64,000 nucleotides of DNA, from the NCBI RefSeq assembly GCF_900105765.1, contig NZ_FNTX01000002.1, forward strand, positions 806,001 through 870,000, in the 5' to 3' direction. Under the pieces are notes generated by a model. It was not told where the DNA came from and did not search any database. It worked only from the letters and a program-made list of their open reading frames with translations. Every line of letters begins with the position of its first letter. Within the stretch, counting starts at the first letter, position 1. Source of the stretch: Ruania alba. Lineage in GTDB: Bacteria; Actinomycetota; Actinomycetes; Actinomycetales; Beutenbergiaceae. A program made the position numbers and the translations under genes. Below, piece by piece: positions 16,297 through 37,797 of the stretch.

Positions 16297-16317
16297 CCAG
16301 TTCCGGAAGGAATCTTT

Positions 16318-20081: not shown

Positions 20082-20088
20082 ACCTTTA

Positions 20089-20105
20089 TGTTGGCTACGC
20101 CAACA
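20089..20105. promoter_or_regulatory. 17-bp palindromic operator, candidate ROK-regulator site
   Basis: TGTTGGC-TAC-GCCAACA is a perfect 7-bp inverted repeat ending 20 bp before the Gfo/Idh start. A near copy, TGTTTGC-ACC-GCCAACA, lies at 29457-29473 in the divergent GMC/importer promoter region, and both are followed by AAG. The only regulator inside this locus is the ROK protein at 22258, so it is the likely binder. Confidence 0.65.
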
Positions 20106-20125
20106 AAGTGTGACAACATGGGAGT

Positions 20126-21247
20126 ATGGCTTCCAGTGTCGCGCCCCGTCCTGCCGTCGCGCTGATCGGCGCCGGGGCCATCGCGGCGGTTCACGTCCGC
20201 GCGATCAGGGCAGCTGGCGCCCGCCTCGTCGGCGTGCTGTCCTCTACCTCTGCCCGATCCAGCGCTGCTGCGGAACGGCTCGGCGCCGAGCGCTCTTATC
20301 CCCGTCTCGACGCACTGCTTGCTGACGATGCCGTCGAGGTTGTCCATATATGCAGCCCGCCCGGGGCGCACAACGAGCATGTGCGAGCCGCTCTCGCCGC
20401 CGGAAAGCACGTGGTCTGCGAGAAGCCGCTCGCCACCACGCCTGCTGAGGCTGCCGATCTCGCGGACCTCGCCGCACTGTCGGGTCGTGTCTGTGCGGTC
20501 CCGTTCGCCTACCGCTATCACCCGATGGCCGTCGAAGCACACACTCGGGCTCGGACCGGGAAGCTGGGACGCATCGTCAGCCTCCGTGGCGCCTATCAGC
20601 AAGAGTGGCGCCTGGTCTACGACGAGGACGGCTGGTGGAGCGATCCCGGGCAGACCGGGCCCTCTCGCGCCTTCGCCGACATCGGTTCCCATCTCGTGGA
20701 CCTGGTGGAGTTCACCTCGGCCGAGCGGATCGCCCGTGTGCACGCGGTGATGCGCACCGTGCTCCCGCAGAGCCCCGCCGGTCACGTGCTGACCACCGAG
20801 GACGTCGCCGCGGTCACCGTCGAGACCACCAGCGGCGCGATCGGGACGCTGCAGGTTTCACAGATGAGCCTGGGTCGCAAGAACAGCCTGACCGTGGAGG
20901 TCTACGGCGCCGACGCTTCGCATACCTTCGACCAGGAGTCACCGGAGTCGCTGTGGACAGCCGATCGCCGCGGCGGGCGTGAGATCGTCCGGGACATCCC
21001 ATCGCTGTCAGACGCGTCCGCGCGCCTGTCGATCCTTCCCGGCGGACACCCGATGGGATACCAGGATGCGTTCACCGCGCTGGTGACTGACGCCTATGTG
21101 GCGACGACCGGCGCATGCCCGGCTGAGCTGCCCACTTTCGACGACGGCGCGCGTGCGGCGGCGGTCGTGGACGCCGTCGTCCGTTCGGCCAACCAGGGCA
21201 GCTGGACCGACGTGGCCGAGTCCCCGACCCTGAGGAGCACGACATGA
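20126..21247 (+). CDS. Gfo/Idh/MocA family oxidoreductase
   Basis: This 373-residue NAD(P)-dependent sugar oxidoreductase has an N-terminal Rossmann fold (VALIGAGAIAAVHVRAI). The family's EKP motif is in VVCEKPLATTPAEAADLA, where the lysine is catalytic. A C-terminal alpha/beta domain carries the substrate-site segment FADIGSHLVDLVEF with the conserved Asp-x-x-x-His. Family members oxidise or epimerise sugars, inositols or the 3-hydroxyl of glycosides in the cytoplasm. It is the first gene of an operon with a TIM-barrel isomerase (ATGA overlap) and a ROK regulator. The palindrome at 20089 stands just upstream. The substrate is presumably derived from the compound handled by the sulfatases further along. 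Confidence 0.9.
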   Translation: MASSVAPRPAVALIGAGAIAAVHVRAIRAAGARLVGVLSSTSARSSAAAERLGAERSYPRLDALLADDAVEVVHICSPPGAHNEHVRAALAAGKHVVCEKPLATTPAEAADLADLAALSGRVCAVPFAYRYHPMAVEAHTRARTGKLGRIVSLRGAYQQEWRLVYDEDGWWSDPGQTGPSRAFADIGSHLVDLVEFTSAERIARVHAVMRTVLPQSPAGHVLTTEDVAAVTVETTSGAIGTLQVSQMSLGRKNSLTVEVYGADASHTFDQESPESLWTADRRGGREIVRDIPSLSDASARLSILPGGHPMGYQDAFTALVTDAYVATTGACPAELPTFDDGARAAAVVDAVVRSANQGSWTDVAESPTLRSTT

Positions 21248-22242
21248 CCGCCGTTCGACCGATCACCCTCTTCACCGGGCAGTGGAGCGATACCCCGCTC
21301 GAGGACGTCATCGCCCAGGCAGCGAGCTGGGGCTACGACGGCGTGGAGATCGACTGCGGGGGAACCCATCTCGACACCCTGCGCGCGGAGGAAGACCCCG
21401 ACTATCTGGCCGGAATCCGGCGCCTGCTCGACCAGCATGGCCTCGGCGTCTGGGCTGTCTCGAACCACGCGGCCGGGCACGCCGTCGGACTCCCAGCCTT
21501 CGACTTCCGGCACGAACGGATGCTCGCCGCTCGGATCTGGGGTGACGGCAATGCTGACGGAATCCGAGAGCGTGCTCGGGAGGAGATGATCCGCACCGCG
21601 CGGGTGGCGCGCCGCCTCGGAGTGGACCGGGTGGTCGGCTTCTCCGGCTCCAGCATCTGGCCGTTCGTCGTAGGCTTCCCCGGAGTCGACGACGACGTGA
21701 TCGATGCGGGCTTCGAGGATTTCGCACGCTCGTGGACCCCAGTGCTCAATGCGTTCGCCCAGGAAGGCGTGGTCTTCGCGCACGAACCACATCCCGGCGA
21801 GATCGCCTTCGACTACTGGACCTGCCATCGTGCGGTCGACGCCATCGCCGGTCACCCGGCCTTCGGGTTCAACTGGGACCCGAGTCACCTGACCTGGCAG
21901 GGCATCGACACAGTCGCGTTCCTGCTGGATTTCGCCGAGCGGATCCACCATGTCGACTGCAAGGACACCCGTGTTCGGCCCGCCGACGGCCGTTCAGGCA
22001 TCCTCGGTTCGCACTTGCCCTGGGGGAGCGTGCGCCGAGCGTGGGACTTCGTGACCGTCGGGCGTGGGCAGGTCCGCTGGGACGATGCCCTCCGCGCACT
22101 GAACGAGATCGGGTACGACGGACCAGTATCGGTGGAGTGGGAGGACATGGCCATGACCCGAGAGGCCGGTGCCGCTGAGGCCGCCCAGTTCCTGCACGAG
22201 CTGCAGCGCACGCTTGCGGGTTCCACGACGACCGAGAAGTGA
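21244..22242 (+). CDS. sugar phosphate isomerase/epimerase (xylose isomerase-like TIM barrel)
   Basis: This 332-residue protein of the AP-endonuclease-2 / xylose-isomerase-like TIM-barrel superfamily includes IolE, IolI and many sugar epimerases. Metal-ligand candidates are the Glu of VEIDCGG, the Glu/His of FAHEPHPGEI, Asp/His of NWDPSHLTWQ and the final Glu in GPVSVEWEDMAM. It starts at an ATG overlapping the stop of the oxidoreductase (ATGA), so the pair probably act in sequence, for example oxidation followed by isomerisation or elimination. No signal peptide is present. The exact reaction is unknown. Confidence 0.88.
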   Translation: MTAVRPITLFTGQWSDTPLEDVIAQAASWGYDGVEIDCGGTHLDTLRAEEDPDYLAGIRRLLDQHGLGVWAVSNHAAGHAVGLPAFDFRHERMLAARIWGDGNADGIRERAREEMIRTARVARRLGVDRVVGFSGSSIWPFVVGFPGVDDDVIDAGFEDFARSWTPVLNAFAQEGVVFAHEPHPGEIAFDYWTCHRAVDAIAGHPAFGFNWDPSHLTWQGIDTVAFLLDFAERIHHVDCKDTRVRPADGRSGILGSHLPWGSVRRAWDFVTVGRGQVRWDDALRALNEIGYDGPVSVEWEDMAMTREAGAAEAAQFLHELQRTLAGSTTTEK

Positions 22243-22257
22243 GGTCCGGATAGAGTC

Positions 22258-23463
22258 ATGGCCATGCTCGAGACGCGGCGCACCGACGGGTCCGGGGGTG
22301 GCCGCACCGCGAACAGCCTCCGCCACAGCAACTTGGCGACCATCTTCGGAATGGTCCACCGAGCGGGAGCGCTCTCGCGGGCCGAGCTGACACGCCGCAC
22401 AGGCCTCAACCGCTCGACGATGGGTGAGTGCCTCAGCGACCTGGCAGATCTTGGCCTCGTGGTGGAGGCCCGTCCCGAGACCGGTTCCGGCCGTGGTCGC
22501 CCCAGTCCGATCATCCGGCCATACCCGGGCACCGTGGCCGTCACGGTCAACCCGGAGGTCGACGCGATCCGTATCGGCCTCGTCGCGATGGGTGGGCGGA
22601 TCATCGAGCAGGTACGTCTCGAGACCGACGGACCGGCAGACGCCAGCGAGGTTGTCCGCCGCAGCGCGGATGTCGTGGACCGGATGCTGGACGGGCAGCC
22701 GTACGTGGTTGCCGGCCTGGCCGTGGCGGTGCCCGGTCAGGTGCGGCTTTCCGACGGGCACGTGCGCGACGCCCCGCACTTCGGGTGGGTCGAGGAACCT
22801 CTCGCCGCAGACCTGGAGCGCGTCACCGGTCTGCCCACGTCGGCCGCGAACGCCGCCTTGCTGGGCATGTACGGCGAGTGCGCGTTCGGGTCGGGTCGCG
22901 GCGTTGACGACCTCGTCTACATGATCGGTGGAGCCAGTGGTATCGGAGGCGGAGTGCTCAGTGGAGGTGCCCTGGTGACCGGCTCGGCCGGCTATGCCGG
23001 AGAGCTGGGGCACCTATTCGTCCGGTCGGACGGCGCCAAGTGTCCCTGCGGCGCTCACGGTTGCCTCGAGGCCGAGGTCACCCAACCCGGCCTCCTCGAC
23101 GCCGTCGGACTCGCACCCGCACAGGTCGAGCGGCTCGAGGCCGAGCTCCTACGGGCCGAGGACCCGGCGGTGCACGAGCTGGTGGACCACGACCGGGACC
23201 TACTCGCAATCGCGGTGCGTTCCGTCGTCAACCTCTTCAACCCCAGCGTGGTGGTGCTCGGCGGATTCCTCTCGACCTTGCACCGCGTGCGGGCGGCCCC
23301 GTTGCTCAGCGAGCAGGCGATCCGCGCGAGCCGGGAGTGCGTGGAGGTTCGCGATGCCGAGCTTGGCGCCGACCAGCTCACCGTCGGGACGGCGGAGCTC
23401 GCCTTCTCCTCCTTGCTCGCCGATCCTGCCTCGGCTCAGCTGATCTCCCGGGCCTCCGCCTGA
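22258..23463 (+). CDS. ROK family transcriptional regulator
   Basis: This 401-residue regulator has an N-terminal winged helix (LATIFGMVHRAGALSRAELTRRTG) and a ROK (NagC/XylR-like) sugar-sensing domain. The zinc site is intact, with His252 in GELGHLF and the cysteine cluster CPCGAHGC at residues 262-269. It follows the isomerase gene by 15 bp and converges on the sulfatase operon, whose stop is six bases beyond its own. As the only regulator in the 20-33 kb locus, it is the probable repressor acting at the palindromes at 20089 and 29457, linking three transcription units. The inducer is expected to be a sugar made in the pathway. Confidence 0.9.
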   Translation: MAMLETRRTDGSGGGRTANSLRHSNLATIFGMVHRAGALSRAELTRRTGLNRSTMGECLSDLADLGLVVEARPETGSGRGRPSPIIRPYPGTVAVTVNPEVDAIRIGLVAMGGRIIEQVRLETDGPADASEVVRRSADVVDRMLDGQPYVVAGLAVAVPGQVRLSDGHVRDAPHFGWVEEPLAADLERVTGLPTSAANAALLGMYGECAFGSGRGVDDLVYMIGGASGIGGGVLSGGALVTGSAGYAGELGHLFVRSDGAKCPCGAHGCLEAEVTQPGLLDAVGLAPAQVERLEAELLRAEDPAVHELVDHDRDLLAIAVRSVVNLFNPSVVVLGGFLSTLHRVRAAPLLSEQAIRASRECVEVRDAELGADQLTVGTAELAFSSLLADPASAQLISRASA

Positions 23464-23469
23464 CCGGTC

Positions 23470-25224
23470 TCAGTCCAGGGTCGCCAGAGCGTGGCCCGCG
23501 GTGATGAGCCGTTCCCGTGTCAGGGTGCCGGTCCGGGCCAGGTCGAGCAGGCTCACCCCGGCGCGGGCGTGGACCAGCTCGGTCCCCAGCACCTCCGGAA
23601 GCGTTTCGCGCAGGATGGCGCGGGCCCCCGGATCTCCCGTGAGCGCCTCGACCGGGGCGGCGAGCCAGTGCCGACCCGGCAGGTCGGCAGCGGCCGGCAG
23701 CGGCTCGGCAACCGCCGCGGCCCGCTCGGCATGACGGCGGCAGAGCAGGTGCTCCGGGCCCGGTGGGCCGTGCCGGGGGAGGCCGAGGCGGTCGAACTGA
23801 CTGCCTGGGGCGTCGTGGTGGCGCAGCCGCTCGAGCAAGAGCTTGACCATGCCCAGCTCGAGAGTCTCATCGCACAGCGGGTGCTGCTGGCCCGGATCGG
23901 TCGCGAGGTCGAAGAGCAATGTTCCGTGTTGCCACGAGCTCACCCAGCTGGCCGCAGCAGGTACCCGCATCGTCCGCAGGCCCTTGGTGAAGGAGAACGG
24001 CTCGGCCGGCTCCCAGTCGCTGAGCTCGCTCACGCCGAAGCGCGACATCATGCGGGTGGGCATGAGGGTGAACTCTTCGAGCGGCTGATTCTCACGCTCG
24101 ACGGAGGACCGCATGTACACGTAGCGACCATCGGTGACGTTCACGTGGCCGCCGTGGCTACCGAACAGCACCGCCTCGTGCCCGTGCGTGAATCCCGACG
24201 GCGACCCGTCCTGTGCGAGCACCTCACCCAGGTCCTGGCCCACCATGTCGGGAGGCGGGTTCTCGCCGAACCACGTCAGGAGCGTCGGTGCAATGTCGAT
24301 GGTCTGAGCCAGGGCGTCGCATGCCGTGCCGGCGCGACCGACACGGGGGTCCCAGAGGAAGAACGGCAGGTGGACCAGCTCGTTGTACCAGGGCATCATC
24401 GCCTTGGCCCACCAGCCGTGCTCACCGAGCAGGTACCCGTGGTCGGTGTTGACGATGAGCATCGTGTCTTCCCACAGGTCGTGGGTGTCCATCGCGTCGA
24501 GCACCCGGCCGAGCGAGTGGTCGCACATGGAGACGAGGGCAGCGTAGTGCCGCCGCGCCTCGGCCACGTGCGCCCCCGCCTCCGTGACCTTCTCGTAGGG
24601 GGGCCAGTCGAAGCCGACGTCGTCGGTGTGCTGGCCGTAGCGATCACGGTAGTGCTGGTGGGCGAAGAAGGGCTCGTGCGGGTCGAACAGCTCCAGCTGC
24701 AGGAACCACCGGTCGGCCTCGGCGTTCGCCCGGAGGAACTCGATGCCGGCATCCACGGTGCGGGTCTGGGAATGTTCGGCCTCGGTCGGCATCGCCTGTC
24801 GGTTGAGGACGTTCTGGCGATTCTGTTGCGCCGGTCCCACCACCCCCCGCCACGGATCATTCTCCTGCCCCCGGAACCCCTCCCAGGTGCTGTAGCGGGT
24901 GTGGTAGGTCGCTCCGCCGTCCTCCCAGTAGTGGTGGTGGTCGGAGGCGAGGTGTGTGTGCACGCCGGCATCGTCGAGGAGCTGGGGCATCGAGTCGTCG
25001 AACGGTTCGAGTGGTCCCCAGGACCGGTGCAGGAAGTTGTGCCGCCCGGTGTGCAGCTCCCGACGTGCGGGCATGCACGGTAGCGACCCGGCGTAGAAGT
25101 TCGTCAGCCGCACCGACCGCTGCGCCAGCCGCTGGAAGTTCGGCGCCTTGACCATCGTCTCGGCCACGTACGGATTCAACATGTGCCGGTTCAGGCTGTC
25201 GAACATCAGCATGATCGCGCGCAT
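23470..25224 (-). CDS. type I sulfatase, cytoplasmic
   Basis: This 584-residue formylglycine-dependent sulfatase carries the CxPxR signature at Cys50 (CMPARRELHTGR). Its cysteine must be converted to formylglycine by a maturation enzyme encoded outside this window. Metal-binding residues include Asp9 of MLMFDSLN and the later DHGYLLGEHGWWAK segment typical of the family. There is no signal peptide, so desulfation takes place inside the cell. The C-terminal about 110 residues (RRHAERAAAVAEPLPAAADLP onward) extend beyond the core sulfatase fold and contain no motif I recognise. It is the last gene of the GMC / TIM-barrel / sulfatase / sulfatase operon. The sulfated substrate is probably a glycan or glycoside. 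Confidence 0.9.
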   Translation of the reverse strand: MRAIMLMFDSLNRHMLNPYVAETMVKAPNFQRLAQRSVRLTNFYAGSLPCMPARRELHTGRHNFLHRSWGPLEPFDDSMPQLLDDAGVHTHLASDHHHYWEDGGATYHTRYSTWEGFRGQENDPWRGVVGPAQQNRQNVLNRQAMPTEAEHSQTRTVDAGIEFLRANAEADRWFLQLELFDPHEPFFAHQHYRDRYGQHTDDVGFDWPPYEKVTEAGAHVAEARRHYAALVSMCDHSLGRVLDAMDTHDLWEDTMLIVNTDHGYLLGEHGWWAKAMMPWYNELVHLPFFLWDPRVGRAGTACDALAQTIDIAPTLLTWFGENPPPDMVGQDLGEVLAQDGSPSGFTHGHEAVLFGSHGGHVNVTDGRYVYMRSSVERENQPLEEFTLMPTRMMSRFGVSELSDWEPAEPFSFTKGLRTMRVPAAASWVSSWQHGTLLFDLATDPGQQHPLCDETLELGMVKLLLERLRHHDAPGSQFDRLGLPRHGPPGPEHLLCRRHAERAAAVAEPLPAAADLPGRHWLAAPVEALTGDPGARAILRETLPEVLGTELVHARAGVSLLDLARTGTLTRERLITAGHALATLD

Positions 25225-25236
25225 CGGGCGTCCTCG

Positions 25237-27048
25237 TCAGGTGAGAGAGTGGGTGAAGTCGGTCTGCTCGATGTCGAGCACGCGTGTGTCCGGGTCGTCG
25301 TGCCCGTCCAGTTGCAGCAGCAGGTAGCGCGCAGCGGTCCGCAGCGGCCGGCCCGGCTCGGCGGCGACGGTCGCCACGACGTCACGGTGGGGCGCCACCG
25401 CGTCGCTGGGGAGGGCAGTCAGGGCCTCGACAGCCCCGAGGCGGACGGCGGGACTCACGTCGGGCGTGAGGTGAGCCACCAACAGGTCGCACGGGACGTC
25501 GTCGCCGGTCTCGATCGCCCACACTTCGGCGGCCGATACCCGCACGTGAGGGTCGTCGTCGTGCTGAGCCGCCGCCGCCAGAGCCGCCACTGTCGACTGC
25601 GTGAGGCGGTGCGTGCTGCGATGTGCGTGCAGTGTCAGCGCCGCCCACCGGCGGATGGTCGCGTCGGGGTCGACGAGGGCCGTGACCAGGCGGTCCTGGA
25701 TGATCGGATCCGGCTCGAGTATCAGGTCGGTCAATGCCAGCAGCCGGGGCAGTGGATAGGCGCCCGGCACCCGGCTGTCGTCCCATCCCTGATGCGGGGA
25801 GTCCTCGTGCAGGAACCCGTTGTCCCAGGTGTTCAGCATGGATTCCCGTAGCCGGGCGGCGAGCTCACGCTCGATGGCGGCGACCTCGGGACGTCCGGCA
25901 AGGTTCTCGAGCTGGCCCGGGTCGGCCCAGGTGTCGTAGAGCTCCACCGGTGGACGTGGGTGCCAGAACGCCTCCGTGGGTCCGGTGAGCCCGCCGCAGC
26001 GATGAGCCCGGTCCCAGGCTCGATAGCCGGCGGCATGCCACGCGAATCCTTGGTGTCGCCCGTTGGGGCGGAACGGCTGGTAGTTGCGCACGTACCGGTA
26101 TCGCGAGCTACGGATCGTGCGCACCATGTCGTCGCGCTCGTCCATCCGGTTGCGCATCCCGACGGCGAACCCCTCCTGGGGGACGGAGCCGACCGTCAGC
26201 GGGCGGTGCTGCATGAACTCCGGCACGTCCGTTCCGGTGAGGGTGAGGATGGTCGGCGGGATGCTGATCGTCGAGACCGGGACCCTCACCCTGGAGCCCG
26301 GTGCGCCCAGCAGGTGAGCCCACCGCGGCGGAGCGGCGATGATCAGTGGCACATGCAGGCCGCTGTCGTAGCAGTAGCGTTTGGAGCGTGGGGCGACTCC
26401 GCCGTGGTCGGAGGTGTGGATGACGATCGTGGAGTCGGTGAGGCCGTCCTCGTCCAGTTGTGCAAGCAGGTCGCCCACGGCAGCGTCCATCCGGGCGATC
26501 CGGCCGTAGTACTGCGCGATGTCAGCACGGATCTCCGGCAGATCGGGCAGGCCCGGCGGGACGGTGACTTTGTCAGGCTCGACGGTGACGGTGTCCCGCG
26601 CGAACACCGCCGACTCGTGAGTGGTGTCCAGATTGACGACCGAGACGAAGGGGGTATCGGTGGGCCGGCTGCGCCAGTGCGCGGTGAGCGAGCTCTCATC
26701 CCACACAGCAGCCGGATCGACGTCACAGTTGTAGTCGGTCTTGGCGTTGTTCGTGCAGTGGTAGCCGCGACTGCGCAGGAGCTCTGGCCAGGTATGCAAC
26801 CAGGGCGGGAGCGCAGCGTTCGCGCGCATCTGGTGGGCAGGTGCGTGGCTCTGCGGGGGAACCCCGGTCAGCAGCGCGAACCGCGACGGCGCACAGACCG
26901 GCGCCGCGGAGTAGGCCTGGTCGAAGGTGACACCACGCGCAGCCAGCGCGTCCAGGTTCGGGGTTGCCGCCAGTGGGTCGCCGTAGCAGCCGAACCACGG
27001 CGGGCAGTCCTCGCTGACGGTGAGCAGGATGTGGGGATGATCAGTCAT
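25237..27048 (-). CDS. type I sulfatase with C-terminal HEAT-like repeats
   Basis: This 603-residue sulfatase resembles the N-sulfoglucosamine sulfohydrolase / arylsulfatase branch. The signature VCAPSRFALLTG places the formylglycine precursor at Cys52. A metal site HTSDHGGVAP follows. The catalytic part ends at about residue 450. After it come roughly 130 residues of helical repeats with Asp-Pro-x-x-x-Val-Arg turns (ALVDPDATIRRWAALTL, HDDDPHVRVSAAEVWAI, LTPDVSPAVRLGAVEAL), typical of HEAT/PBS repeats, which may recognise the substrate or a partner. There is no signal peptide. The ATG at 27048 overlaps the stop of the TIM-barrel gene. A longer in-frame extension upstream merely runs over that gene. 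Confidence 0.9.
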   Translation of the reverse strand: MTDHPHILLTVSEDCPPWFGCYGDPLAATPNLDALAARGVTFDQAYSAAPVCAPSRFALLTGVPPQSHAPAHQMRANAALPPWLHTWPELLRSRGYHCTNNAKTDYNCDVDPAAVWDESSLTAHWRSRPTDTPFVSVVNLDTTHESAVFARDTVTVEPDKVTVPPGLPDLPEIRADIAQYYGRIARMDAAVGDLLAQLDEDGLTDSTIVIHTSDHGGVAPRSKRYCYDSGLHVPLIIAAPPRWAHLLGAPGSRVRVPVSTISIPPTILTLTGTDVPEFMQHRPLTVGSVPQEGFAVGMRNRMDERDDMVRTIRSSRYRYVRNYQPFRPNGRHQGFAWHAAGYRAWDRAHRCGGLTGPTEAFWHPRPPVELYDTWADPGQLENLAGRPEVAAIERELAARLRESMLNTWDNGFLHEDSPHQGWDDSRVPGAYPLPRLLALTDLILEPDPIIQDRLVTALVDPDATIRRWAALTLHAHRSTHRLTQSTVAALAAAAQHDDDPHVRVSAAEVWAIETGDDVPCDLLVAHLTPDVSPAVRLGAVEALTALPSDAVAPHRDVVATVAAEPGRPLRTAARYLLLQLDGHDDPDTRVLDIEQTDFTHSLT

Positions 27049-27950
27049 CGGTGGCCGTGCGTGGTGGTGCGGTGGTGCTGCGCCGAGGTCACCCACGATG
27101 CGCTGCGCCGGACGCTCTCCACCGGCGGTAGGACGGACCAGTCGACCTCGACGACGATCCACACGTGCGAGGGGAGCACGTCCAGGGCCTCCTCCAGCGG
27201 GGCGTCGCCAGTGCCCGGCTCACGCCACACACCGGCCGCGGTGGTGCGGCGGTAGTCCCAGTTGTTCGTGCGCGCTTCGGTGAGGAGGTCCAGATCGTAA
27301 TCCTTGACGTGCACCCCGGCGATCGCCGCTCGGTGCCGTGTGAGTACGCCGCACACGTCAGCCCCGGCCCACGCGAGATGCCCCAGATCGGGACCGAACC
27401 CGATTCCGGAAGCGAGCACCTCGTCGATCTCTGATTCGGTCTCCACCCAAGATCCGACATGCGGGTGGAGGGCCGTGACCAGTCCTTCGGCCGCTGCTGC
27501 CTCGGCGGTGGCGACGAGGAGGTCTCGCGCCCGGGCCGTGCGATCGCCATCGGTGCTGTGCCCGTGTGCTGGACGATCAAAACGTGGGTGGCCGGGACCG
27601 GTGCCGAGGGAGAGGAAGGCGAGTGGCGATCCGAGCTCGGCCAGGCGGGCCGCGTCGACGCGTGCACGGGCGATGGTGTCCCGGTTCTGCGCAGGATCAT
27701 CGGACAGATCGAGCGAGAGATAGCCGGGACCTGCTCGCAGACCCGCTTGCCCCAGGGTGTGGGCGTAGTTGGAGACGGCTTCATCGGCTCCGAGGTCAGG
27801 TTGCACCGCCGTGAAGCCGGCACCGGCCACGATCTCCAGCACCTCCTCGCGTGGCGGCGCCAGGGATGGATCGAACCAGCCGTCCCGGCTGGCGAGGAAC
27901 TGCAGCGGGTTCACGGCCACGGGGTGCTGGCACAGGGCAGCCGCGCTCAT
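27045..27950 (-). CDS. xylose isomerase-like TIM-barrel protein
   Basis: This 301-residue sugar-isomerase-like TIM barrel carries candidate metal ligands in TALHPHVGSWVETESEI, GPDLGHLAWAG, GVHVKDYDL and WIVVEVDWS. It is read from an ATG overlapping the GMC stop, and its own stop overlaps the sulfatase start, so the three products are made together. Members next to GMC or Gfo/Idh sugar oxidases in glycoside-degrading bacteria act on oxidised (3-keto) sugars, as isomerases or as deglycosidases. That parallel is the main reason to suspect such a role here, and the exact reaction is not shown by the sequence. Confidence 0.85.
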   Translation of the reverse strand: MSAAALCQHPVAVNPLQFLASRDGWFDPSLAPPREEVLEIVAGAGFTAVQPDLGADEAVSNYAHTLGQAGLRAGPGYLSLDLSDDPAQNRDTIARARVDAARLAELGSPLAFLSLGTGPGHPRFDRPAHGHSTDGDRTARARDLLVATAEAAAAEGLVTALHPHVGSWVETESEIDEVLASGIGFGPDLGHLAWAGADVCGVLTRHRAAIAGVHVKDYDLDLLTEARTNNWDYRRTTAAGVWREPGTGDAPLEEALDVLPSHVWIVVEVDWSVLPPVESVRRSASWVTSAQHHRTTTHGHR

Positions 27951-29386
27951 GCGCCCGCCCCGGTGATCGTGCGTGCCGTTCGCAGCGCGAGCGCCACCAT
28001 GCTCAGGGTCGGGTTGCTGGTATTCCGGGTGCTCAGCACACCGTTGCCCGCCACGTAGACGTTGTCGGTCCCCCAGATGAGGCCGGTCGGGTCAGCTGAA
28101 CTGGTTTCGTCCGTCCCGATCCGGGTGCTCCCCATCAGGTGCAGGCTCCCCCCGGGGGCGGCCAGCGAGATGGAGAGGCCGTGGGTGCGGTCGCGGATGG
28201 CGTCGGCCACGCGCGCGTGATCGGCGTATGCCTCGTGCGTGCGGGCGCGATCGGTCTCCCCAAGACGGAACTGGGCCTGCACCGATGGCAGACCCCAGCG
28301 GTCGAGGTGATCGTCGTCGAAGACGAGACGGTTCCCGGGATCGGGGTCTACGCCGATGAACTGGCCGATGTCCGCGGTCTGCCACGCGGGCGTTCCTGGG
28401 AATGCCAGGCCGGTGGTCCAGCCGGGAACGACTTGTGTGTGGACCGGCCGCGAGGAGCTCGACGGTATCCATACGCCGAACAGCTCGTCCGTCTCCGTGA
28501 CGCCTTCTACGACCGGTTCGGCGAGCTTGACCCGGGAGCTGAGCATCGTGTGATCGGTGAGATAGCGCCCCAGCGCAGGTGGGCGGATGCCCGAGGCCCA
28601 CAGCACCGCTGGACTGGCGAGGGCCCCTGCAGCTACGACCACTACGTCGCCGGAGACTGCGACGGGGTTCGAGCCGTCCGCCCGGGCGGTGTGCACTGTG
28701 TGCGCACGACCACCGGTGTGGTCGATCCGGCGCGCAGGGTGCTCGGCGAGGATCTGGATCTCTCCCGCTCGGTCAGAGCCGTCCAGCAGCGCATCGATAC
28801 CCGAGAACTGCAATGATCCGTCAGCGGTGCGGCGCGCGCCGATGGGTAGCCCTTGCACCTCGCGGCCGGCCGGCAGATCACCGATCTCAGCCGTCAGCGC
28901 GGCGACGAGGCGCTGGTGACGTACTCCGCCGATGCCTGCCTCGCTCCACAGCAGTCGCGCGGCTTCGTCCCACAGCTCGACAAGCTCAGCGAGCGGGATC
29001 GATGGCTCGGCCTCCGTCGCCGCGTCGGGAACGGCGCAGACGTGCGACCAGAACGTCAGCATGCCGCCAACGGCGTGCGTGAATCGTTGCCCCCTGAGTC
29101 CGGGCAGCGGTTCGGGGTCGTGCTGGTAGGGCACCAGATTTGCGAGGATACGGGGGCCGAACTCGGTCTGCAGCTGGCTCTCGGCAGGGTAGGAGTTGCG
29201 GATGTGGGCACCGAGGTGCTGATCGTGCGGGAGGCCCCCGGCCTCGATCATCACGACGGAGGCGCCTGCACGGCTCACCTCACCGGCGACCGCGGCGCCG
29301 GCGGCACCGGAGCCGATGATCACCACATCCGCCCGCAGCGGTTCGTCAGCGTGGGTCAGCACGCGGATTCGATCGGTGGACGTCAT
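27947..29386 (-). CDS. GMC family FAD oxidoreductase (glucoside/pyranose oxidase-like)
   Basis: This 479-residue flavoprotein has an N-terminal ADP-binding motif VVIIGSGAAGAAVAGEV followed by an acidic strand end (MIEAGG). Its C-terminal GMC domain carries the His of HLMGSTRIGTDE and the Asn pair region GNGVLSTRNTSNPTLSM, the catalytic couple of pyranose-2-oxidase-like enzymes. Such enzymes oxidise a ring hydroxyl of a sugar or glycoside to a keto group. There is no signal peptide and no twin-arginine motif, so it acts in the cytoplasm. It is the first gene of the minus-strand operon and shares its promoter region, containing the 17-bp palindrome at 29457, with the importer. Confidence 0.9.
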   Translation of the reverse strand: MTSTDRIRVLTHADEPLRADVVIIGSGAAGAAVAGEVSRAGASVVMIEAGGLPHDQHLGAHIRNSYPAESQLQTEFGPRILANLVPYQHDPEPLPGLRGQRFTHAVGGMLTFWSHVCAVPDAATEAEPSIPLAELVELWDEAARLLWSEAGIGGVRHQRLVAALTAEIGDLPAGREVQGLPIGARRTADGSLQFSGIDALLDGSDRAGEIQILAEHPARRIDHTGGRAHTVHTARADGSNPVAVSGDVVVVAAGALASPAVLWASGIRPPALGRYLTDHTMLSSRVKLAEPVVEGVTETDELFGVWIPSSSSRPVHTQVVPGWTTGLAFPGTPAWQTADIGQFIGVDPDPGNRLVFDDDHLDRWGLPSVQAQFRLGETDRARTHEAYADHARVADAIRDRTHGLSISLAAPGGSLHLMGSTRIGTDETSSADPTGLIWGTDNVYVAGNGVLSTRNTSNPTLSMVALALRTARTITGAGA

Positions 29387-29456
29387 CGCTCCTCGTTCGA
29401 AAGTCGGACCGGATCTCAGCTTGGGGTTGCGTTCAGGGGCATCGCCGCGCTAGAAA

Positions 29457-29473
29457 TGTTTGCACCGCCAACA
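29457..29473. promoter_or_regulatory. 17-bp palindromic operator between GMC operon and importer
   Basis: TGTTTGC-ACC-GCCAACA matches the palindrome at 20089 except at one arm base and in the 3-bp spacer. It lies 71 bp upstream of the GMC start and about 230 bp upstream of the permease, so it could control both divergent units. The remaining 318-bp intergenic stretch shows no other gene I trust, apart from a 33-codon reading frame at 29607-29708 that overlaps the permease start. Confidence 0.6.
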
Positions 29474-29704
29474 AAGGATGTCAATCGGGTGCAAGGGCGC
29501 CATCCCGGATGCGGCCATCACCCCACCACACCACCCGGCACTCACGCCGGCACGTCGTCGCCGCGCTCGGCGCAGGCATCGACATCACGAAGGGAACGCC
29601 AGAGGCATGAGAGTGCACCAGGCACACCGGCCTGCCGGGGAAGGATCCTCGCACCGGCGCATCACCGCAGCCCGCCGCTGCGCTCCACCGCCGGGGAGAT
29701 CGGA

Positions 29705-30610
29705 GTGAGCGCCGCAACCGGAGCACCCAGAACCAGGCGCCGTCGCCGGGACTGGACCGGCTGGATCTTCGTCGGCCCTTTCATGGCGGTCTTCGTCGTC
29801 GTGATGGCTGCCCCGGTCGTGTACGCGATCTACCTCAGCCTGTTCCAGACACGCCTCATCGGCGGGACTGCCTTCGTCGGCCTGGCGAACTACCTCGATG
29901 CCCTGCAGGACCCGACCTTTCACACGGCACTGCTGCGAGTCATCGGCTACCTGCTCGTCCAGGTCCCGGTGATGCTTGTCCTTGCCGCGATCGCCGCTCT
30001 CGCGATCGACAGTGCCCGCCTCTACCTCTCCTCCGTCTTCCGGATCACGATCTTCCTGCCCTACGCGGTTCCGGCGGTCGTCGCCACCCTGATGTGGGGC
30101 TTCATGTACGGCACCCGATATGGGCTGATCGGCAACCTCAACGATGCGTTCGGGTGGAGCCTGCCGAACCCGTTGTCCGCCTCCTGGGTGATCGTGGCAA
30201 TCGGCAACATTGCCGTCTGGTCCTACGTCGGCTACAACATGTTGATCCTCTACTCGGCGTTGCAGCTGATCTCCAAGGACCTCTACGAGGCCGCCGAGAT
30301 CGACGGCGCCGGTACGTTCCGGGTGATCCGTGCGATCAAGTTGCCTGCCATGCGTCCCTCGCTGGTGGTCTGCATCGTCTTCTCGGTGATCGGTTCCTTC
30401 CAACTCTTCAACGAGCCGAACGTGCTCAAGACTTTGGCCCCGAACGCGATCGCCTCCGGCTACACCCCGAACATGTACGCGTACAACCTCGCGTTCGCAG
30501 GGCAGCAGTCGAGCTACGCCGCAGCAATTGCGATCGTGCTCGGCATCGTCACCGTGGTGGTCGCGTACATCGTGCAGGCCGTCGGCATGCGACGGGAGGG
30601 GACCCGATGA
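29705..30610 (+). CDS. CUT1 ABC importer permease, MalF/UgpA-like
   Basis: This 301-residue permease has six predicted helices, the first being IFVGPFMAVFVVVMAAPVVY. The coupling loop is DLYEAAEIDGAGTFRVIRA. The GTG start at 29705 is preceded by GGGGAG. An upstream in-frame extension of several hundred codons overlaps the divergent GMC gene and is not real. Here the permeases precede the binding protein, the reverse of the rhamnoside cassettes. It presumably imports the sulfated substrate of the neighbouring enzymes. The ATPase subunit is not encoded locally. Confidence 0.9.
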   Translation: MSAATGAPRTRRRRRDWTGWIFVGPFMAVFVVVMAAPVVYAIYLSLFQTRLIGGTAFVGLANYLDALQDPTFHTALLRVIGYLLVQVPVMLVLAAIAALAIDSARLYLSSVFRITIFLPYAVPAVVATLMWGFMYGTRYGLIGNLNDAFGWSLPNPLSASWVIVAIGNIAVWSYVGYNMLILYSALQLISKDLYEAAEIDGAGTFRVIRAIKLPAMRPSLVVCIVFSVIGSFQLFNEPNVLKTLAPNAIASGYTPNMYAYNLAFAGQQSSYAAAIAIVLGIVTVVVAYIVQAVGMRREGTR

Positions 30611-31533
30611 CCACGCAGACCTCCGCCCGCGCCACCACCTCGCATGCAGGCCCACGGGCTGCACGCCGGACACAGCCGTTGCGCGACCGACGTTCCGTCC
30701 TGGCCACCGGGCTGATGAGCGTGGTGCTTCTATACGCCATCGTGCCGTTGTTCTGGTTGGTGGTGAACTCCAGCAAGACCCGCGACGCGCTCTTCGGCTC
30801 TTTCGGCCTGTGGTTCTCAGGTGACTTCGCCCTCTGGGACAACATCGTTCAGACCTTCACCTACAACGGTGGCGAGTTCGGACGGTGGGTACTCAACACC
30901 CTGCTCTATGTGGCAGCCGGAGCGTTTGGTGCCACGGCACTGGCGGCGGTGGCCGGCTACGGGCTCGCTCGCTTCCGCTTCCCCGGGCGGCGCGGGGTGG
31001 TCGCCGTGGTGCTGGGCGCCGTCGCGATCCCTGCCACGGCGCTGGCCGTGCCGACGTTCTTGATGTTCAGCGCGTGGGGCCTCACCAACACCCCCTGGTC
31101 GGTCATCCTGCCCTCGTTGATGACACCCTTCGGGCTCTACTTGGTGTGGTTCTTCGCCGACGACGCCGTACCGGCTGAACTGCTCGAGGCGGCCCGTATC
31201 GACGGTGCTCGTGAGATGCGGATCTTTCGCTCCATCGCGCTCCGGCTGCTCATGCCAGGGCTCGTGCCCGTTCTGCTGTTCAACTTCGTCAACACCTGGA
31301 ACAACTACTTCTTGCCGCTGATCATGCTGAGCGAGTCGGACTGGTTCCCGCTCACCGTTGGCCTGAACAACTGGAGCCTGCTGAACACCCAGGCCGCTAC
31401 CGGCATCGGCGAACCGATCGACAACATCATCATCACCGGATCGCTCATCACGATCATCCCCACCGTTCTGCTCTTCCTGTTCCTGCAGCGCTTCTGGCAG
31501 ACGGGTCTGACAGCAGGAAGCGTCAAGCAATGA
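30607..31533 (+). CDS. CUT1 ABC importer permease, MalG/UgpE-like
   Basis: This 308-residue second permease has a start overlapping the previous stop as ATGA. A basic cytoplasmic N-tail is followed by a helix from about residue 33 (LATGLMSVVLLYAIVPLFWL). The EAA loop is LLEAARIDGAREMRIFRS. The C-terminus RFWQTGLTAGSVKQ is typical of the family. The binding-protein gene begins 25 bp downstream with GAGAGGA as ribosome-binding site. Confidence 0.92.
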   Translation: MTTQTSARATTSHAGPRAARRTQPLRDRRSVLATGLMSVVLLYAIVPLFWLVVNSSKTRDALFGSFGLWFSGDFALWDNIVQTFTYNGGEFGRWVLNTLLYVAAGAFGATALAAVAGYGLARFRFPGRRGVVAVVLGAVAIPATALAVPTFLMFSAWGLTNTPWSVILPSLMTPFGLYLVWFFADDAVPAELLEAARIDGAREMRIFRSIALRLLMPGLVPVLLFNFVNTWNNYFLPLIMLSESDWFPLTVGLNNWSLLNTQAATGIGEPIDNIIITGSLITIIPTVLLFLFLQRFWQTGLTAGSVKQ

Positions 31534-31558
31534 CCACCCCCACCGAGAGGAACACACG

Positions 31559-32914
31559 ATGACTCACGTGAAGAAGCGGTTGAGCCTCGTCGCGGCCGGC
31601 GTGACCGCGGTCGCCGCCCTGGCTGCTGCCGGCTGCAGCCCCGACTCCGAGGGCAGCACGGGCGGCAGCGATGCCGTCACCGACGAGGAGATCCAGGCGG
31701 CACTGTCCGAGGACGTCACGCTCGACTTCTGGTCCTGGTCTCCCCAGGCCGAGCCGATGGCCGAGGCATTCATGGCCGAGTACCCCAGTGTGACGGTCAA
31801 TGTCGAAAATATGGGCGACCCCGGCGTTCTCTACACCCGGCTGCAGAACGTCCTGCAAGCCGGGTCGGGTGTTCCTGACGTGACGTACATGGAGTACTTG
31901 GCGATGCCACAGTTCGTCCTGGGTGAGTCGATCTCGGACCTTACTCGGTTCGGTCTGGACGATCTCGAGAGTGAGTTCTCCTCGAGTGCCTGGGATCAGG
32001 TGCAGAGCGAGACCGGCGTGTACGGGCTGCCGGCCGACTCCGGTCCTCTTGTGATGTTCTATCGCGAGGACGTGTTCGCAGAGCTTGGGCTGGAGGCTCC
32101 ATCCACATGGCAGGAGTACGGCGAAGCTGCGGTCGCGATCCACGACGCTGATCCGAGCCGGTACATCGCGGCCGACACAGGTGACCCGAACGGAACAGTG
32201 GCGATGATCTGGCAGGCCGGTGGCCAGCCGTTCTCCTACGAAGGTTCCAACCTCACGGTCGACCTGGCTGATGAGGGCACGTTGCGCTGGGCACAGATGT
32301 GGGACGGGCTCCTCAAGGACGGACTGGTCGACACCGAGACGTCGATGTGGACTCCAGAGTGGTTGAGTGCACTCGAGGATGGTTCGATCGCCACCTGGGT
32401 GACTGGCGCTTGGGGCGGTGCTTCCCTTCAGACGCACGTACCGGGAGCCGCCGGACAGTGGCGGGTGGCGCCCGTGCCCACCTACGCCGACGGCGAGGCA
32501 GCCAGCGGCGTGTTCGGGGGTTCGGGACTCTCCGTTCTTTCCGAGAGTGACGAGCAACTCGCAGCGGCGGGATTCGTCGAGTGGATGACGACGAGCGAGC
32601 AGGCCATGGACATCTGGGTCCACGAGGCGGGCCAGTTCCCTGTGGTGAGCTCTGTGCTCGAGGATGAGGCGTGGTTGAGTGCACAGAGCGAGTACTTCGG
32701 GGATCAGGAAGTCAATCGCGTCTTTGTCGCTTCCGACGAAGCGGTTCTTCCCGGATGGCAGTACCTGCCGTTCGAGCCGTACGCGAACACCATCTTCAAC
32801 GACTCTGTGGGCGGTGCCTACGGCGGTGATCTCAGCATCGCCGATGGGTTGGTCGGCTGGCAGGAGGACATTGTGCAGTTTGGCCAGTCACAGGGGTTCA
32901 CCGTCAACGAGTGA
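31559..32914 (+). CDS. CUT1 ABC importer sugar-binding lipoprotein
   Basis: This 451-residue extracellular binding protein has a signal peptide with lipobox LAAAGC and a Ser/Gly linker. The mature domain starts VTLDFWSWSPQAEPMAEAF and contains the family's PDVTYMEYLAMPQF and GLPADSGPLVMFYRE segments. The ligand pocket should be rich in aromatic residues (many Trp in the second half). It is the last gene of the importer operon and ends before a clear hairpin. By context it binds a sulfated oligosaccharide or glycoside, or a desulfated counterpart. There is no direct evidence of the ligand. Confidence 0.92.
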   Translation: MTHVKKRLSLVAAGVTAVAALAAAGCSPDSEGSTGGSDAVTDEEIQAALSEDVTLDFWSWSPQAEPMAEAFMAEYPSVTVNVENMGDPGVLYTRLQNVLQAGSGVPDVTYMEYLAMPQFVLGESISDLTRFGLDDLESEFSSSAWDQVQSETGVYGLPADSGPLVMFYREDVFAELGLEAPSTWQEYGEAAVAIHDADPSRYIAADTGDPNGTVAMIWQAGGQPFSYEGSNLTVDLADEGTLRWAQMWDGLLKDGLVDTETSMWTPEWLSALEDGSIATWVTGAWGGASLQTHVPGAAGQWRVAPVPTYADGEAASGVFGGSGLSVLSESDEQLAAAGFVEWMTTSEQAMDIWVHEAGQFPVVSSVLEDEAWLSAQSEYFGDQEVNRVFVASDEAVLPGWQYLPFEPYANTIFNDSVGGAYGGDLSIADGLVGWQEDIVQFGQSQGFTVNE

Positions 32915-35886: not shown

Positions 35887-37797
35887 CTACAGGTAGTGCC
35901 GCTGCCTCGCTCTGAGCTCGGCGTAGGCGGCGTAGGCGGCCCGGGTGCTCTCCAGCCGGGCCACCTCGGCCACTGGCACGTCCCACCCGTTCGTCGCCGG
36001 CGGGTTGGGGCCGACCGGGTCGGTCTCGATCACGATCACCGTGGCATCGTCGGCCGCCGCAGCCTCGGTGTACGCCTCGCGGAAGTCCGCGATCGTGTCC
36101 ACCGAGACGGTCCGCACCCCGAAGCTGGCGGCGTTCGCGGCCAGGTCCACGCCCACATGCTCGCCCGCGAGCCGGCCGGAATCGTCCCGCATCCGGTACT
36201 CGGTGCCGAACCGCTGCGAGCCCACCGACTCCGACAGCGCCCCGATCGAGGCGAACCCGTGGTTCTGCAGCACCACCACGATCACCTTGAGGCCCTCGGC
36301 CACGATGGTCGCCAGCTCGGTCGGCATCATCTGATACGTGCCGTCCCCGACGATCGCCACCACCTGATGCTCCGGCTCGGGCCGCGCCAGCCGCACCCCG
36401 ACCGCGGCGGGCAGCTCGTACCCCATGCAGGAGTAGCCGTACTCCAGGTGGTACTGCGCCGGACCGGCGGCCCGCCACAGGGCCTGCAGGTCCCCGGGCA
36501 TCGACCCGGCGGCATTGATCACCACGTCCTCGGCACCCATCAGCTCGTTCAGCGCGCCGAAGACCTCCACCTGGGCCGGGAGCCCGCCCGGCGCACCCTG
36601 ACCGGGATGGGTGAGCTCCGCCGTCACGCGTGCCCAGTCCTCGGTGCGGGTGCGTGCCTCGTTCGCGTACCCCTCGTCCACGCGGTACCCCTCCAACGCC
36701 GCATGGAGCGCCGTCAGCCCCTCCCGGGCATCGGCCACCAACATGGAGGCGCTGTGCTTGGCGGCATCGAAGGAGGCCACGTTCAGGTTCACGAAACGCA
36801 CGTCCGGGTCCGCGAATGCGGTGTGGGACGCCGTCGTGAAGTCCGAGTAGCGGGTCCCCACACCGATCACCACATCGGCCTGCGCGGCGAGCGCGTTCGC
36901 GGAGGCCGCGCCCGTGGAGCCCACACCGCCGACCGCGCACTCGTGGTCCGCGGGCAGCGCTCCCTTGCCGGCCTGGGTGTCTGCCACCGGGATGCCCGTG
37001 GCGTCGGCGAAGGCGGCGAGCGCCGCGCTGGCGCCAGAGTAGATCGCACCGCCACCGGCGATGAGCAGCGGCCGCTTCGCCGAGCGGATCACGTCGGCGG
37101 CACGCTCCAGCGCGGCCGGTTCGGGCACGGGGCGGGCCACGTGCCAGGTGCGCTCACGGAAGAGCTCGAGCGGGAAGTCATGCGCCTCGGCCTGCACGTC
37201 CTGCGGCAGGCACAGGGTGACCGCACCGGTCTCGGCCGGGTCGGTGAGCACCCGCATCGCCTGCGGCAGCGAGGCGATCAGCTGCTCGGGCCGGGTGATC
37301 CGGTCCCAGAACCGCGAGACCGGTCGGAACGCGTCGTTCACGCTTACCTCGGGGGAGCGCGGGTCCTCAAGCTGTTGCAGCACCGGGTCCGGACGGCGGG
37401 TGGCGAAGATGTCCGAGGGCAGCAGCAGCACCGGCACCCGGTTGATCGTCGCCAGCGCGGCCCCGGTCACCATATTCGTCGAGCCCGGGCCGATCGAGGC
37501 GGTGCAGGCGAAGGTCTGCAGCCGATTCCGGCTCCGGGAGAACCCGACGGCGGAGTGCACCATCGCCTGCTCGTTGCGCACCAGATAGTACGGCAGGGCC
37601 TCCTCGCCGTCAGCAGGATCCACCGCGTTCTGCAGCAGTGCCTGCCCCACCCCGGCCACGTTCCCGTGCCCGAAGATCCCGAACGCACCGGGGATCAGCC
37701 GCTGGCGCACCCCGTCGCGCTCGGTGTACTGCACGGAGAGGAAGCGCACCAGGGCCTGCGCCACGGTCAGCCGCACGGTCTCGTTCTGCACGGTCAT
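35887..37797 (-). CDS. iolD: 3D-(3,5/4)-trihydroxycyclohexane-1,2-dione hydrolase
   Basis: IolD (636 residues) is a thiamine-diphosphate enzyme that opens the ring of trihydroxycyclohexanedione to 5-deoxy-D-glucuronate in myo-inositol breakdown. The N-terminal PYR domain, central NAD-like domain and C-terminal PP domain are all present. The ThDP motif is GDGTYQMMPTELATIV followed by the QNHGFASIGALSES segment. Length matches the family. The ATG at 37797 overlaps the iolB stop (ATGA). It is the last gene of the operon iolC / aldolase / iolB / iolD. The earlier dehydrogenase and dehydratase steps (iolG, iolE) are not in this window. Confidence 0.93.
   Translation of the reverse strand: MTVQNETVRLTVAQALVRFLSVQYTERDGVRQRLIPGAFGIFGHGNVAGVGQALLQNAVDPADGEEALPYYLVRNEQAMVHSAVGFSRSRNRLQTFACTASIGPGSTNMVTGAALATINRVPVLLLPSDIFATRRPDPVLQQLEDPRSPEVSVNDAFRPVSRFWDRITRPEQLIASLPQAMRVLTDPAETGAVTLCLPQDVQAEAHDFPLELFRERTWHVARPVPEPAALERAADVIRSAKRPLLIAGGGAIYSGASAALAAFADATGIPVADTQAGKGALPADHECAVGGVGSTGAASANALAAQADVVIGVGTRYSDFTTASHTAFADPDVRFVNLNVASFDAAKHSASMLVADAREGLTALHAALEGYRVDEGYANEARTRTEDWARVTAELTHPGQGAPGGLPAQVEVFGALNELMGAEDVVINAAGSMPGDLQALWRAAGPAQYHLEYGYSCMGYELPAAVGVRLARPEPEHQVVAIVGDGTYQMMPTELATIVAEGLKVIVVVLQNHGFASIGALSESVGSQRFGTEYRMRDDSGRLAGEHVGVDLAANAASFGVRTVSVDTIADFREAYTEAAAADDATVIVIETDPVGPNPPATNGWDVPVAEVARLESTRAAYAAYAELRARQRHYL

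Follow-up and report, generated by a model that had tools for sequence, protein, structure and literature searches.

A candidate pathway for desulfation and oxidative deglycosylation of a sulfated glycoside in Ruania alba

Gene content and regulation of the locus

The locus considered here lies within a stretch of 64,000 nucleotides from the genome of Ruania alba (contig NZ_FNTX01000002.1, positions 806,001 to 870,000; hereafter the window). It comprises ten genes, which code for two sulfatases, a flavoprotein of the GMC family, a Gfo/Idh/MocA oxidoreductase (Gfo/Idh), two TIM-barrel proteins (TIM1 and TIM2), a ROK-family regulator and three components of an ATP-binding cassette (ABC) importer (Table 1). 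With a probability of about 0.55, this locus encodes a pathway for the desulfation and subsequent oxidative deglycosylation of a sulfated glycoside. By homology, all four enzyme types of an oxidation-elimination-hydration-reduction route are encoded together.

Table 1. Features of the locus, with positions in the window
Feature	Position	Strand	Basis or remark
Operator-like palindrome 1	20088..20107		Its final base is 19 positions upstream of the Gfo/Idh start
Gfo/Idh/MocA oxidoreductase, predicted NAD(P)H-dependent 3-keto-sugar reductase	20126-21247	+	Pfam PF01408
TIM1, xylose-isomerase-like, predicted 2-hydroxy-3-keto-glycal hydratase	21244-22242	+	phmmer 8ro4 (AtHYD), 2zds
ROK-family regulator, presumed binder of both palindromes	22258-23463	+	PF00480 and N-terminal helix-turn-helix match
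Sulfatase 1, cytoplasmic type-I (formylglycine) sulfatase	23470-25224	-	PF00884, CMPAR at 50
Sulfatase 2, S1_8 family, C-terminal HEAT repeats, predicted 2-O-sulfohydrolase	25237-27048	-	PF00884, PF13646
TIM2, IolE-fold TIM barrel, predicted beta-eliminase of a keto-glycoside	27045-27950	-	PF01261, AlphaFold, Foldseek
GMC flavoprotein, predicted to oxidise sugars at C3 (or C2), pyranose oxidase / C-glycoside oxidase superfamily	27947-29386	-	
Operator-like palindrome 2	29456..29475		70 positions before the GMC start, 230 before permease 1
ABC sugar permease 1	29705-30610	+	PF00528
ABC sugar permease 2	30607-31533	+	PF00528
Solute-binding lipoprotein of the importer	31559-32914	+	PF01547

The genes for Gfo/Idh, TIM1 and the ROK protein follow each other on the plus strand, and the row GMC-TIM2-sulfatase 2-sulfatase 1 converges on them from the minus strand. 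Overlaps of four bases each occur between GMC and TIM2, TIM2 and sulfatase 2, Gfo/Idh and TIM1, and the two permease genes; only 12 bases separate the sulfatase genes, and the minus-strand row is operon-like. The genes of both permeases, whose start codons were assigned in this analysis, and of the lipoprotein are oriented divergently from the GMC gene. All ten genes are intact open frames with coding-type third positions (GC content at third positions 0.79–0.89), so that the gene content given in a preliminary description of this DNA (importer, two cytoplasmic sulfatases, GMC, Gfo/Idh and two TIM barrels) was confirmed. That description also stated that neither a glycosidase nor a lyase is encoded. 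A Pfam scan of the ten products indeed revealed no glycosidase or polysaccharide lyase; however, TIM2 itself is likely a lyase, and two genes for glycoside hydrolases (GH) of family GH78 lie just outside the interval.

The palindrome TTGTTGGCNNNGCCAACAAA was found at 20088 and 29456 (four matches, i.e. two sites read on both strands; 0.06 expected in the window), and none of 100 shuffles contained as many matches. With up to two mismatches, the genome of 4.83 Mb holds this pattern only at these two sites, before Gfo/Idh and before GMC, which supports the view that the genes form a regulon. The ROK protein would control both promoters through the shared palindrome, and the importer is presumably controlled from palindrome 2. 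A glycosidase elsewhere in the genome under the same operator, named beforehand as evidence against an oxidative route, was not found at this stringency; a distant glycosidase could nevertheless be co-regulated through a less similar site or by a different regulator. When three mismatches were allowed, three more places were obtained in the genome, compared to 4 matches of a reversed control pattern. These places (L014, L015, L017; loci read in this or other genomes carry L numbers) lie in or beside transporter-like frames, and no glycosidase was recognised in the 3 kb inspected, judged without a Pfam scan. A convincing copy of the operator was found in none of the TIM2-clade, GMC and sulfatase loci scanned in relatives. 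One site differing by 2 mismatches from the pattern occurs in the C-glycoside oxidase locus of an Arthrobacter (L197:6389).

Properties of the sulfatases and the putative oxidative enzymes

Both sulfatases possess the maturation motif C-x-P-x-R (CMPAR with C50 in sulfatase 1; CAPSR with C52 in sulfatase 2), and a hydrophobic leader was detected in neither. The genome encodes a formylglycine-generating enzyme (FGE; C1:593014, E 8.3e-77), again in a frame without evident leader, and therefore maturation of the sulfatases in the cytoplasm is plausible. Sulfatase 2 is a member of family S1_8 (9bba (S1_8C) 200.3 bits, 9bbd 183 and 9bb9 161.1), as the best chain not named S1_8 reached 79.6 bits. In PMC12549532, three S1_8 members are described as sulfohydrolases acting on position 2 of galactose, assigned largely from structures, and xylose-2-sulfate and N-sulfoglucosamine are cited for other members. 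By analogy, sulfatase 2 is predicted to act at position 2.

Relatives of sulfatase 2 were also sought on plasmids (25 records, 6 of them covering at least 80% of the query), and five of these six were inspected. The locus of Neorhizobium petrolearium (L258) combines relatives of sulfatase 2 (43% identity) and sulfatase 1 (54%) with a further sulfatase, an ABC importer, a GH3 gene and an annotated FGE. In Novosphingobium pentaromativorans (L257, 45%), a GH3 gene, further sulfatases and protocatechuate dioxygenase genes were found, and in a Sphingobium (L260, 45%) a GH1 gene adjoins the sulfatase 2 relative, with aromatic catabolic genes around. Thus, a GH3 or GH1 gene lies beside or near the relative in three of the five loci. 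No GH was detected among the proteins scanned in the two others, L259 (54%), which contains a major facilitator superfamily transporter and an aldo-keto reductase, and L261 (44%).

Sulfatase 1 is of a widespread type: in the order, matches at E ≤ 1e-60 (relatives 50–67% identical) were obtained in 17 of 297 genomes, including that of R. alba, which itself has four or more copies, and 66 plasmid records were found as well. In two loci (L117 and L123), a sulfatase-2-like gene (29–31%) and sulfatase 1 come after the importer genes, which gives no clue to the substrate. In L104, a ROK gene and a PF01261 TIM barrel of another type (no match to TIM1 or TIM2) occur 4–5 kb from sulfatase 1, and sulfatase 1 may thus be loosely linked with other TIM barrels. 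In the whole genome (4.83 Mb), Pfam gave 57 matches to sulfatases, some of which are pieces of one gene; for an actinobacterium, this genome looks rich in sulfatases.

The GMC protein belongs to the pyranose oxidase / C-glycoside oxidase superfamily and matches 7dve (E 2.3e-48). Foldseek returned 9fl2, 8qve and 7dve first (26–31% identity; TM score 0.82 for both 7dve and 9fl2), and the catalytic pair His416/Asn458, invariant in the alignment, is retained; the fold is therefore that of this superfamily. In the tree, to which a long-branch warning applies, GMC did not group with the glycoside 3-oxidases and C-glycoside oxidases (pyranose oxidase clades III-IV). The insertion-1 stretch between the anchors comprises 42 residues, compared to 44–73 in 23 relatives, and lies in a region of low predicted local distance difference test (pLDDT) values. 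GMC possesses no counterpart of the arm stretch of the Kitasatospora-type oxidase, and its head stretch measures 30 residues versus 54 in L157 (Kitasatospora aureofaciens). Arm and head segments are linked to monosaccharide specificity in pyranose oxidases according to PMC10807413, and by these segments GMC does not belong to the oligomeric, monosaccharide-oxidising pyranose 2-oxidases of clade I. Short heads also occur in L154 (29) and L156 (34), both of the monosaccharide-type group, so that a short head alone says little about specificity. Since GMC shows the hallmarks of neither characterised group, we only infer that it oxidises C3 of a glycoside rather than C2 of a free sugar. At E ≤ 1e-20, GMC was detected in none of the other 23 genomes of the family searched, and a scan of the genome collection with its sequence alone gave no relative; relatives were then found with an alignment-based query. 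To judge from its sequence, GMC may represent a new, uncharacterised lineage of FAD-dependent sugar oxidases outside the described clades.

At least 150 relatives of GMC were confirmed, and the best 80 were considered, with one locus each (26–38% identity; flanks of up to 10 kb). TIM1 relatives (50–62%, E < 1e-50) occur in 28 of these 80 loci, compared to none of 27 control sulfatase loci. In 25 of the 28, a Gfo/Idh relative lies on the same strand within 1.5 kb of TIM1, and a CarB-like match is present in 27; among all 80, CarB matches were counted in 53 loci unfiltered and in 35 after removal of overlapping matches. Plasmid pSA2 of Novosphingobium (L263) is an example, with the order ROK, GMC, DUF6379 (CarB), xylose isomerase (CarC), Gfo/Idh and TIM1 (58%), followed by aromatic-dioxygenase genes. 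Because of this recurrence beside GMC, TIM1 and Gfo/Idh can be regarded as the regular tail of GMC-initiated deglycosylation in the loci examined. Against the PDB, phmmer gave two matches for TIM1 at E ≤ 1e-3, the putative protein 2zds (E 3.1e-116) and AtHYD (8ro4, E 3.7e-36), which hydrates 2-hydroxy-3-keto-glucal in Agrobacterium; the AtHYD match spans nearly all of TIM1. Gfo/Idh is near levoglucosan and inositol dehydrogenases (NF052479 149.3 bits, cut-off 650; IolG second best, 113, cut-off 355), and both identities were rejected because the scores are far under the NCBIfam cut-offs. A second TIM1 (54%) is encoded with Gfo/Idh and ROK genes elsewhere in this genome (L250 7128-10637, G000:C2 near 2499135), where the 19.9 kb read contained nothing that matches GMC, TIM2 or the sulfatases.

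The preliminary description had likened the locus to C-glycoside degradation in Microbacterium, and this likeness was not upheld. Neither CarB nor CarC gave a tblastn match in the window at E ≤ 1e-3, and GMC stands outside the respective clade in the tree, so that a system of the Microbacterium type was discarded. The model PF19906 (CarB/CGDB) found nothing in the genome; it was equally silent in 14 control genomes, yet detects the proteins of L044 and L051.

For TIM2, the best NCBIfam match is IolE (TIGR04379), with 76.8 bits versus a cut-off of 290, and a true IolE inosose dehydratase was rejected on this basis. The AlphaFold model (pLDDT 91.9) gave IolE first in Foldseek (TM score 0.80), and the top 50 matches contain 3-keto-beta-glucopyranoside-1,2-lyases of Alistipes and Bacteroides, AtHYD and several epimerases. 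The lyase AL1 aligned with a TM score of 0.67, and the lyases 8tct and 8tcd range from 0.63 to 0.67. Inosose dehydration and the cleavage of 3-keto-glycosides are the same chemistry: in both, the group that is lost stands beta to a ketone. According to our mapping, H162-x-H164, D188, H214 and E268 of TIM2 correspond to the residues that provide the metal site and the catalytic histidine of the beta-eliminase AtOGE (H-x-H, D, H and E in PMC10628242).

In the tree, TIM2 is placed on a long branch (1.78) with 13 sequences of the order (SH-aLRT, an approximate likelihood-ratio branch support, 99), separate from IolE-like sequences and from the GMC-associated TIM proteins of Streptomyces. TIM1 (56–61%) was present in four of the 13 loci of this clade (L233-L245): three of them (L237, L238, L240) combine a ROK gene with a Gfo/Idh gene (46–48%) that adjoins TIM2, and the fourth, L233, contains an importer, a ROK match and a pair of Gfo/Idh genes; L237 additionally bears a PF06439 3-keto-disaccharide hydrolase. 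The closest TIM2 found (47%) is encoded on a Streptomyces plasmid (L253) in the order ROK, Gfo/Idh (49%), TIM, Gfo/Idh, TIM2 and importer; a GH78 gene (51%) follows further on, beside aromatic-ring dioxygenase genes. These arrangements place TIM2 where the eliminase of a Gfo/Idh-based version of the pathway is expected. The window has TIM2 in place of a CarB/CarC match, and GMC would supply the first oxidation there.

Proposed pathway and alternative explanations

According to the proposed pathway, a small glycoside or oligosaccharide bearing sulfate groups would enter through the importer. Two sulfates of the terminal sugar would then be removed in the cytoplasm, the 2-O-sulfate by sulfatase 2 and another one by sulfatase 1, by which the hydroxyl groups required in the later steps become free. 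GMC would then oxidise C3 of the desulfated glycoside. TIM2, with its IolE-type metal site, would abstract the proton at C2, and the aglycone or next sugar would be expelled from C1 by beta-elimination. Hydration by TIM1 and reduction by Gfo/Idh would complete the route. These four steps would stand in for the GH3 or GH1 enzyme encoded beside sulfatase 2 relatives in three of the five plasmid loci. A sulfate group at C2 or C3 would hinder the reactions at C2-H and C3-OH, which might be the reason why the sulfatase genes are grouped with the oxidative genes. It is possible, and put forward here tentatively, that the route serves specifically 2-O-sulfated, perhaps aryl, glucosides, with C2 desulfation, C3 oxidation and C1-C2 elimination in the cytoplasm replacing GH3 or GH1; the thalassiolins of seagrass, which are flavone glucoside 2-sulfates, would be candidates for such a substrate.

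Sulfated glycosides are usually thought to be desulfated for the action of glycoside hydrolases. If the proposed pathway is true, desulfation also feeds oxidative deglycosylation, and sulfatase specificity and oxidation chemistry are coupled, since the route needs free C2 and C3. The GMC lineage and the IolE-type clade would be candidate tools for the cleavage of glycosides untouched by hydrolases, and searches for known glycosidases would miss such loci.

The oxidative route named in the preliminary description stands in part: all enzyme types are present by homology, TIM1 and Gfo/Idh recur near the GMC family, and part of the TIM2 clade occurs with both. The union with the sulfatases was found in no other locus examined. 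A hidden Markov model (HMM) of the sulfatases built here recognised 27 of 27 loci of the positive set, but gave no match in the best 80 GMC loci, in 20 further GMC loci (partly from the same genomes) or in the 13 TIM2 loci. Conversely, TIM1 or GMC lay near the sulfatases in none of 27 sulfatase loci of the same order. Searches for the whole set covered 59, 396 and 396 genomes with GMC, 396 with sulfatase 2, 297 with sulfatase 1 and 198 with TIM2, as well as the best 80 GMC loci; in the large searches few candidates were scored per genome, the samples overlapped and strict E limits applied, so that absence holds for these searches. Each half recurs, and GMC, TIM1 and these sulfatases occur together only here within these searches. 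Conservation of the six-gene set, which the preliminary description had proposed as a check, was thus not observed in any other genome examined.

Several observations weigh against the proposed pathway, beginning with the restriction of the full gene set to this one genome among those searched. GMC forms a lone deep branch in the tree (end branch 2.33, with the long-branch warning) and falls outside both the C-glycoside oxidases and the pyranose 2-oxidases. The region of its flavinylation motif reads LTFW-S, where H-W was found in 22 of 23 compared sequences and H-W-T in 21 of 22. A full insertion-1 segment seems to be lacking, and at 69-113 the structural model has low confidence. In the case of TIM2, IolE is the best Foldseek match and epimerases are interspersed among the lyases. 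The residues shared with AtOGE occur in all 36 aligned sequences of the IolE superfamily; they are consistent with the assignment but not diagnostic, and therefore indicate an intact metal site rather than a particular reaction. TIM1 was not found in 9 of the 13 TIM2-clade loci. In addition, the end of a GH78 rhamnosidase gene lies 1.2 kb before Gfo/Idh, and in Streptomyces (L198) the pair of GMC and TIM genes adjoins a propeller domain of aldos-2-ulose dehydratase (AUDH), i.e. a C2-oxidation context.

This context fits a pyranose 2-oxidase route, in which a free sulfated monosaccharide is supplied by a glycosidase that is not part of the regulon, or is itself what the importer selects; after desulfation, GMC would oxidise C2 (or C3) to a dicarbonyl, which the TIM proteins would isomerise or dehydrate. 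Such a route seems rather unlikely; it would correspond to one of the refuting outcomes given in the preliminary description, namely oxidation of free monosaccharides. It is in line with it that, among the matches listed, the five best for GMC (L153-L157) belong to the Kitasatospora oxidase group and occur without CarB, that a GMC gene of this group is followed by an IolE-like gene in L158, L159, L186, L194, L196, L198 and L217, and that GH78 genes are located nearby. However, GMC is devoid of the arm and head segments tied to monosaccharide specificity (PMC10807413), even if two members of the group are short-headed too; TIM2 falls outside the clade of the GMC-associated TIM proteins of Streptomyces; TIM1 is of the 3-keto-glucal hydratase family; and no AUDH domain was found among the ten products. 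The seven loci with an IolE-like gene (five Streptomyces) may by themselves represent a bacterial osone pathway.

Cleavage by a glycosidase in trans, either GH78 or another, is likewise regarded as unlikely; the role of Gfo/Idh, GMC and the TIM proteins would then be limited to interconversion of the freed sugar (epimerisation via a keto intermediate). Two GH78 genes (6404-9334 and 16318-18918) have binding-protein and permease genes beside them, and the Streptomyces plasmid with the closest TIM2 (L253) also carries GH78. Moreover, many TIM barrels of the TIM2 fold are epimerases, including the 3-keto-glucoside 4-epimerase YcjR. On the other hand, two other frames lie between the nearer GH78 gene and the locus, and neither GH78 gene showed an operator copy. 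A rhamnosidase removes rhamnose, whereas the sugar beneath it remains, which also argues against this explanation. The two GH78 genes are part of parallel cassettes (3401-9334 and 13110-18918) of solute-binding protein, permease and alpha-L-rhamnosidase, and the rhamnosidases are 80% identical. Between the cassettes lie genes for an AraC protein, a pyridine-nucleotide reductase and a P450; of these, the stretch 10373-13126 contains a small frame (by eye perhaps a ferredoxin), a Pyr_redox_2 reductase and a cytochrome P450, possibly for aglycone metabolism.

It is very improbable that a sulfated cyclitol is the substrate and that Gfo/Idh and TIM2 act as IolG and IolE to feed iolCBD (35887-40689): iolC, iolB and iolD, all above their NCBIfam cut-offs, do lie 3 kb downstream, and IolE and IolG are the best and second best matches of TIM2 and Gfo/Idh, respectively, but both matches are far below their cut-offs (see above), no operator copy lies at the iol genes, which come with their own GntR-type gene (at 40801), an IolE-like protein with a higher score (146.9 bits, again below the cut-off) is encoded elsewhere beside methylmalonate-semialdehyde dehydrogenase, and an inositol route has no obvious use for a GMC sugar oxidase or a second TIM protein. 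The downstream group consists of iolD, iolB, a Cgl0159-like gene, iolC and the divergent GntR-type gene, with no iolG or iolE among them. Further on (46255-48033), a GH39 gene followed by aldo-keto reductase and transporter genes forms a separate glycoside cluster.

Comparison with known systems

The proposed route of desulfation and oxidative deglycosylation most closely resembles several pathways in its parts. In the GlycDH-AtOGE-AtHYD-Gfo operon of Agrobacterium, as described in PMC10628242, the same sequence of oxidation, elimination by a metal-dependent TIM protein, hydration by a TIM protein and reduction by Gfo/Idh occurs, and TIM1 is homologous to AtHYD. The R. alba locus differs by a GMC of the pyranose oxidase type instead of GlycDH and by the additional sulfatases; furthermore, TIM2 matches IolE, and none of the five proteins that phmmer gave for it at E ≤ 1 is an eliminase. 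The levoglucosan pathway of Bacillus smithii (lgdA-B1-B2-C) has the four-step logic in common, but acts on an anhydrosugar and has no sulfatase (PMC7676230), and Gfo/Idh of the window scores far under the levoglucosan dehydrogenase cut-off.

In the CarA-CarB/CarC loci for C-glycosides (Microbacterium; pSA2 of Novosphingobium, L263), a GMC of the same superfamily, Gfo/Idh and TIM1 (50–62%) are clustered, and L263 shares the ROK regulator with the window locus. The latter, however, shows no CarB/CarC match, its GMC is outside the clade, and sulfatases are added. The 3-keto-beta-glucopyranoside-1,2-lyases of Bacteroides and Alistipes (8tct, 8tcd) have the fold of TIM2 at an identity of just 13–14%, and no pyranose oxidase-type GMC is known from their pathway.

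With respect to desulfation, sulfatase 2 belongs with the S1_8 enzymes that act on lambda-carrageenan in Pseudoalteromonas. Those enzymes are periplasmic and prepare chain ends for GH110 and GH2 (PMC12549532), whereas here neither a leader nor a hydrolase in the locus was found. The Neorhizobium petrolearium locus (L258) resembles the R. alba locus in the relatives of both sulfatases, the ABC importer and the annotated FGE, but contains a GH3 gene, and nothing in the 29.8 kb read matches GMC, TIM1, TIM2 or Gfo/Idh.

A connection of sulfatases with keto-sugar enzymes may well exist in Planctomycetes and Verrucomicrobia. In titles and abstract openings of mostly non-subscription literature, no work joining a pyranose or C-glycoside oxidase pathway to sulfatases was found, and the word sulfatase was absent from the seven papers searched on these oxidases; one genome paper (PMC8194134) contains both oxidase and sulfatase words. 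The chemistry of oxidation, elimination, hydration and reduction is already known (PMC10628242, PMC7676230 and PMC10646112), and so are S1_8 sulfatases. An arrangement that joins the two and employs a GMC from none of the described clades, with a likely eliminase of the IolE type, would be new as far as these searches go.

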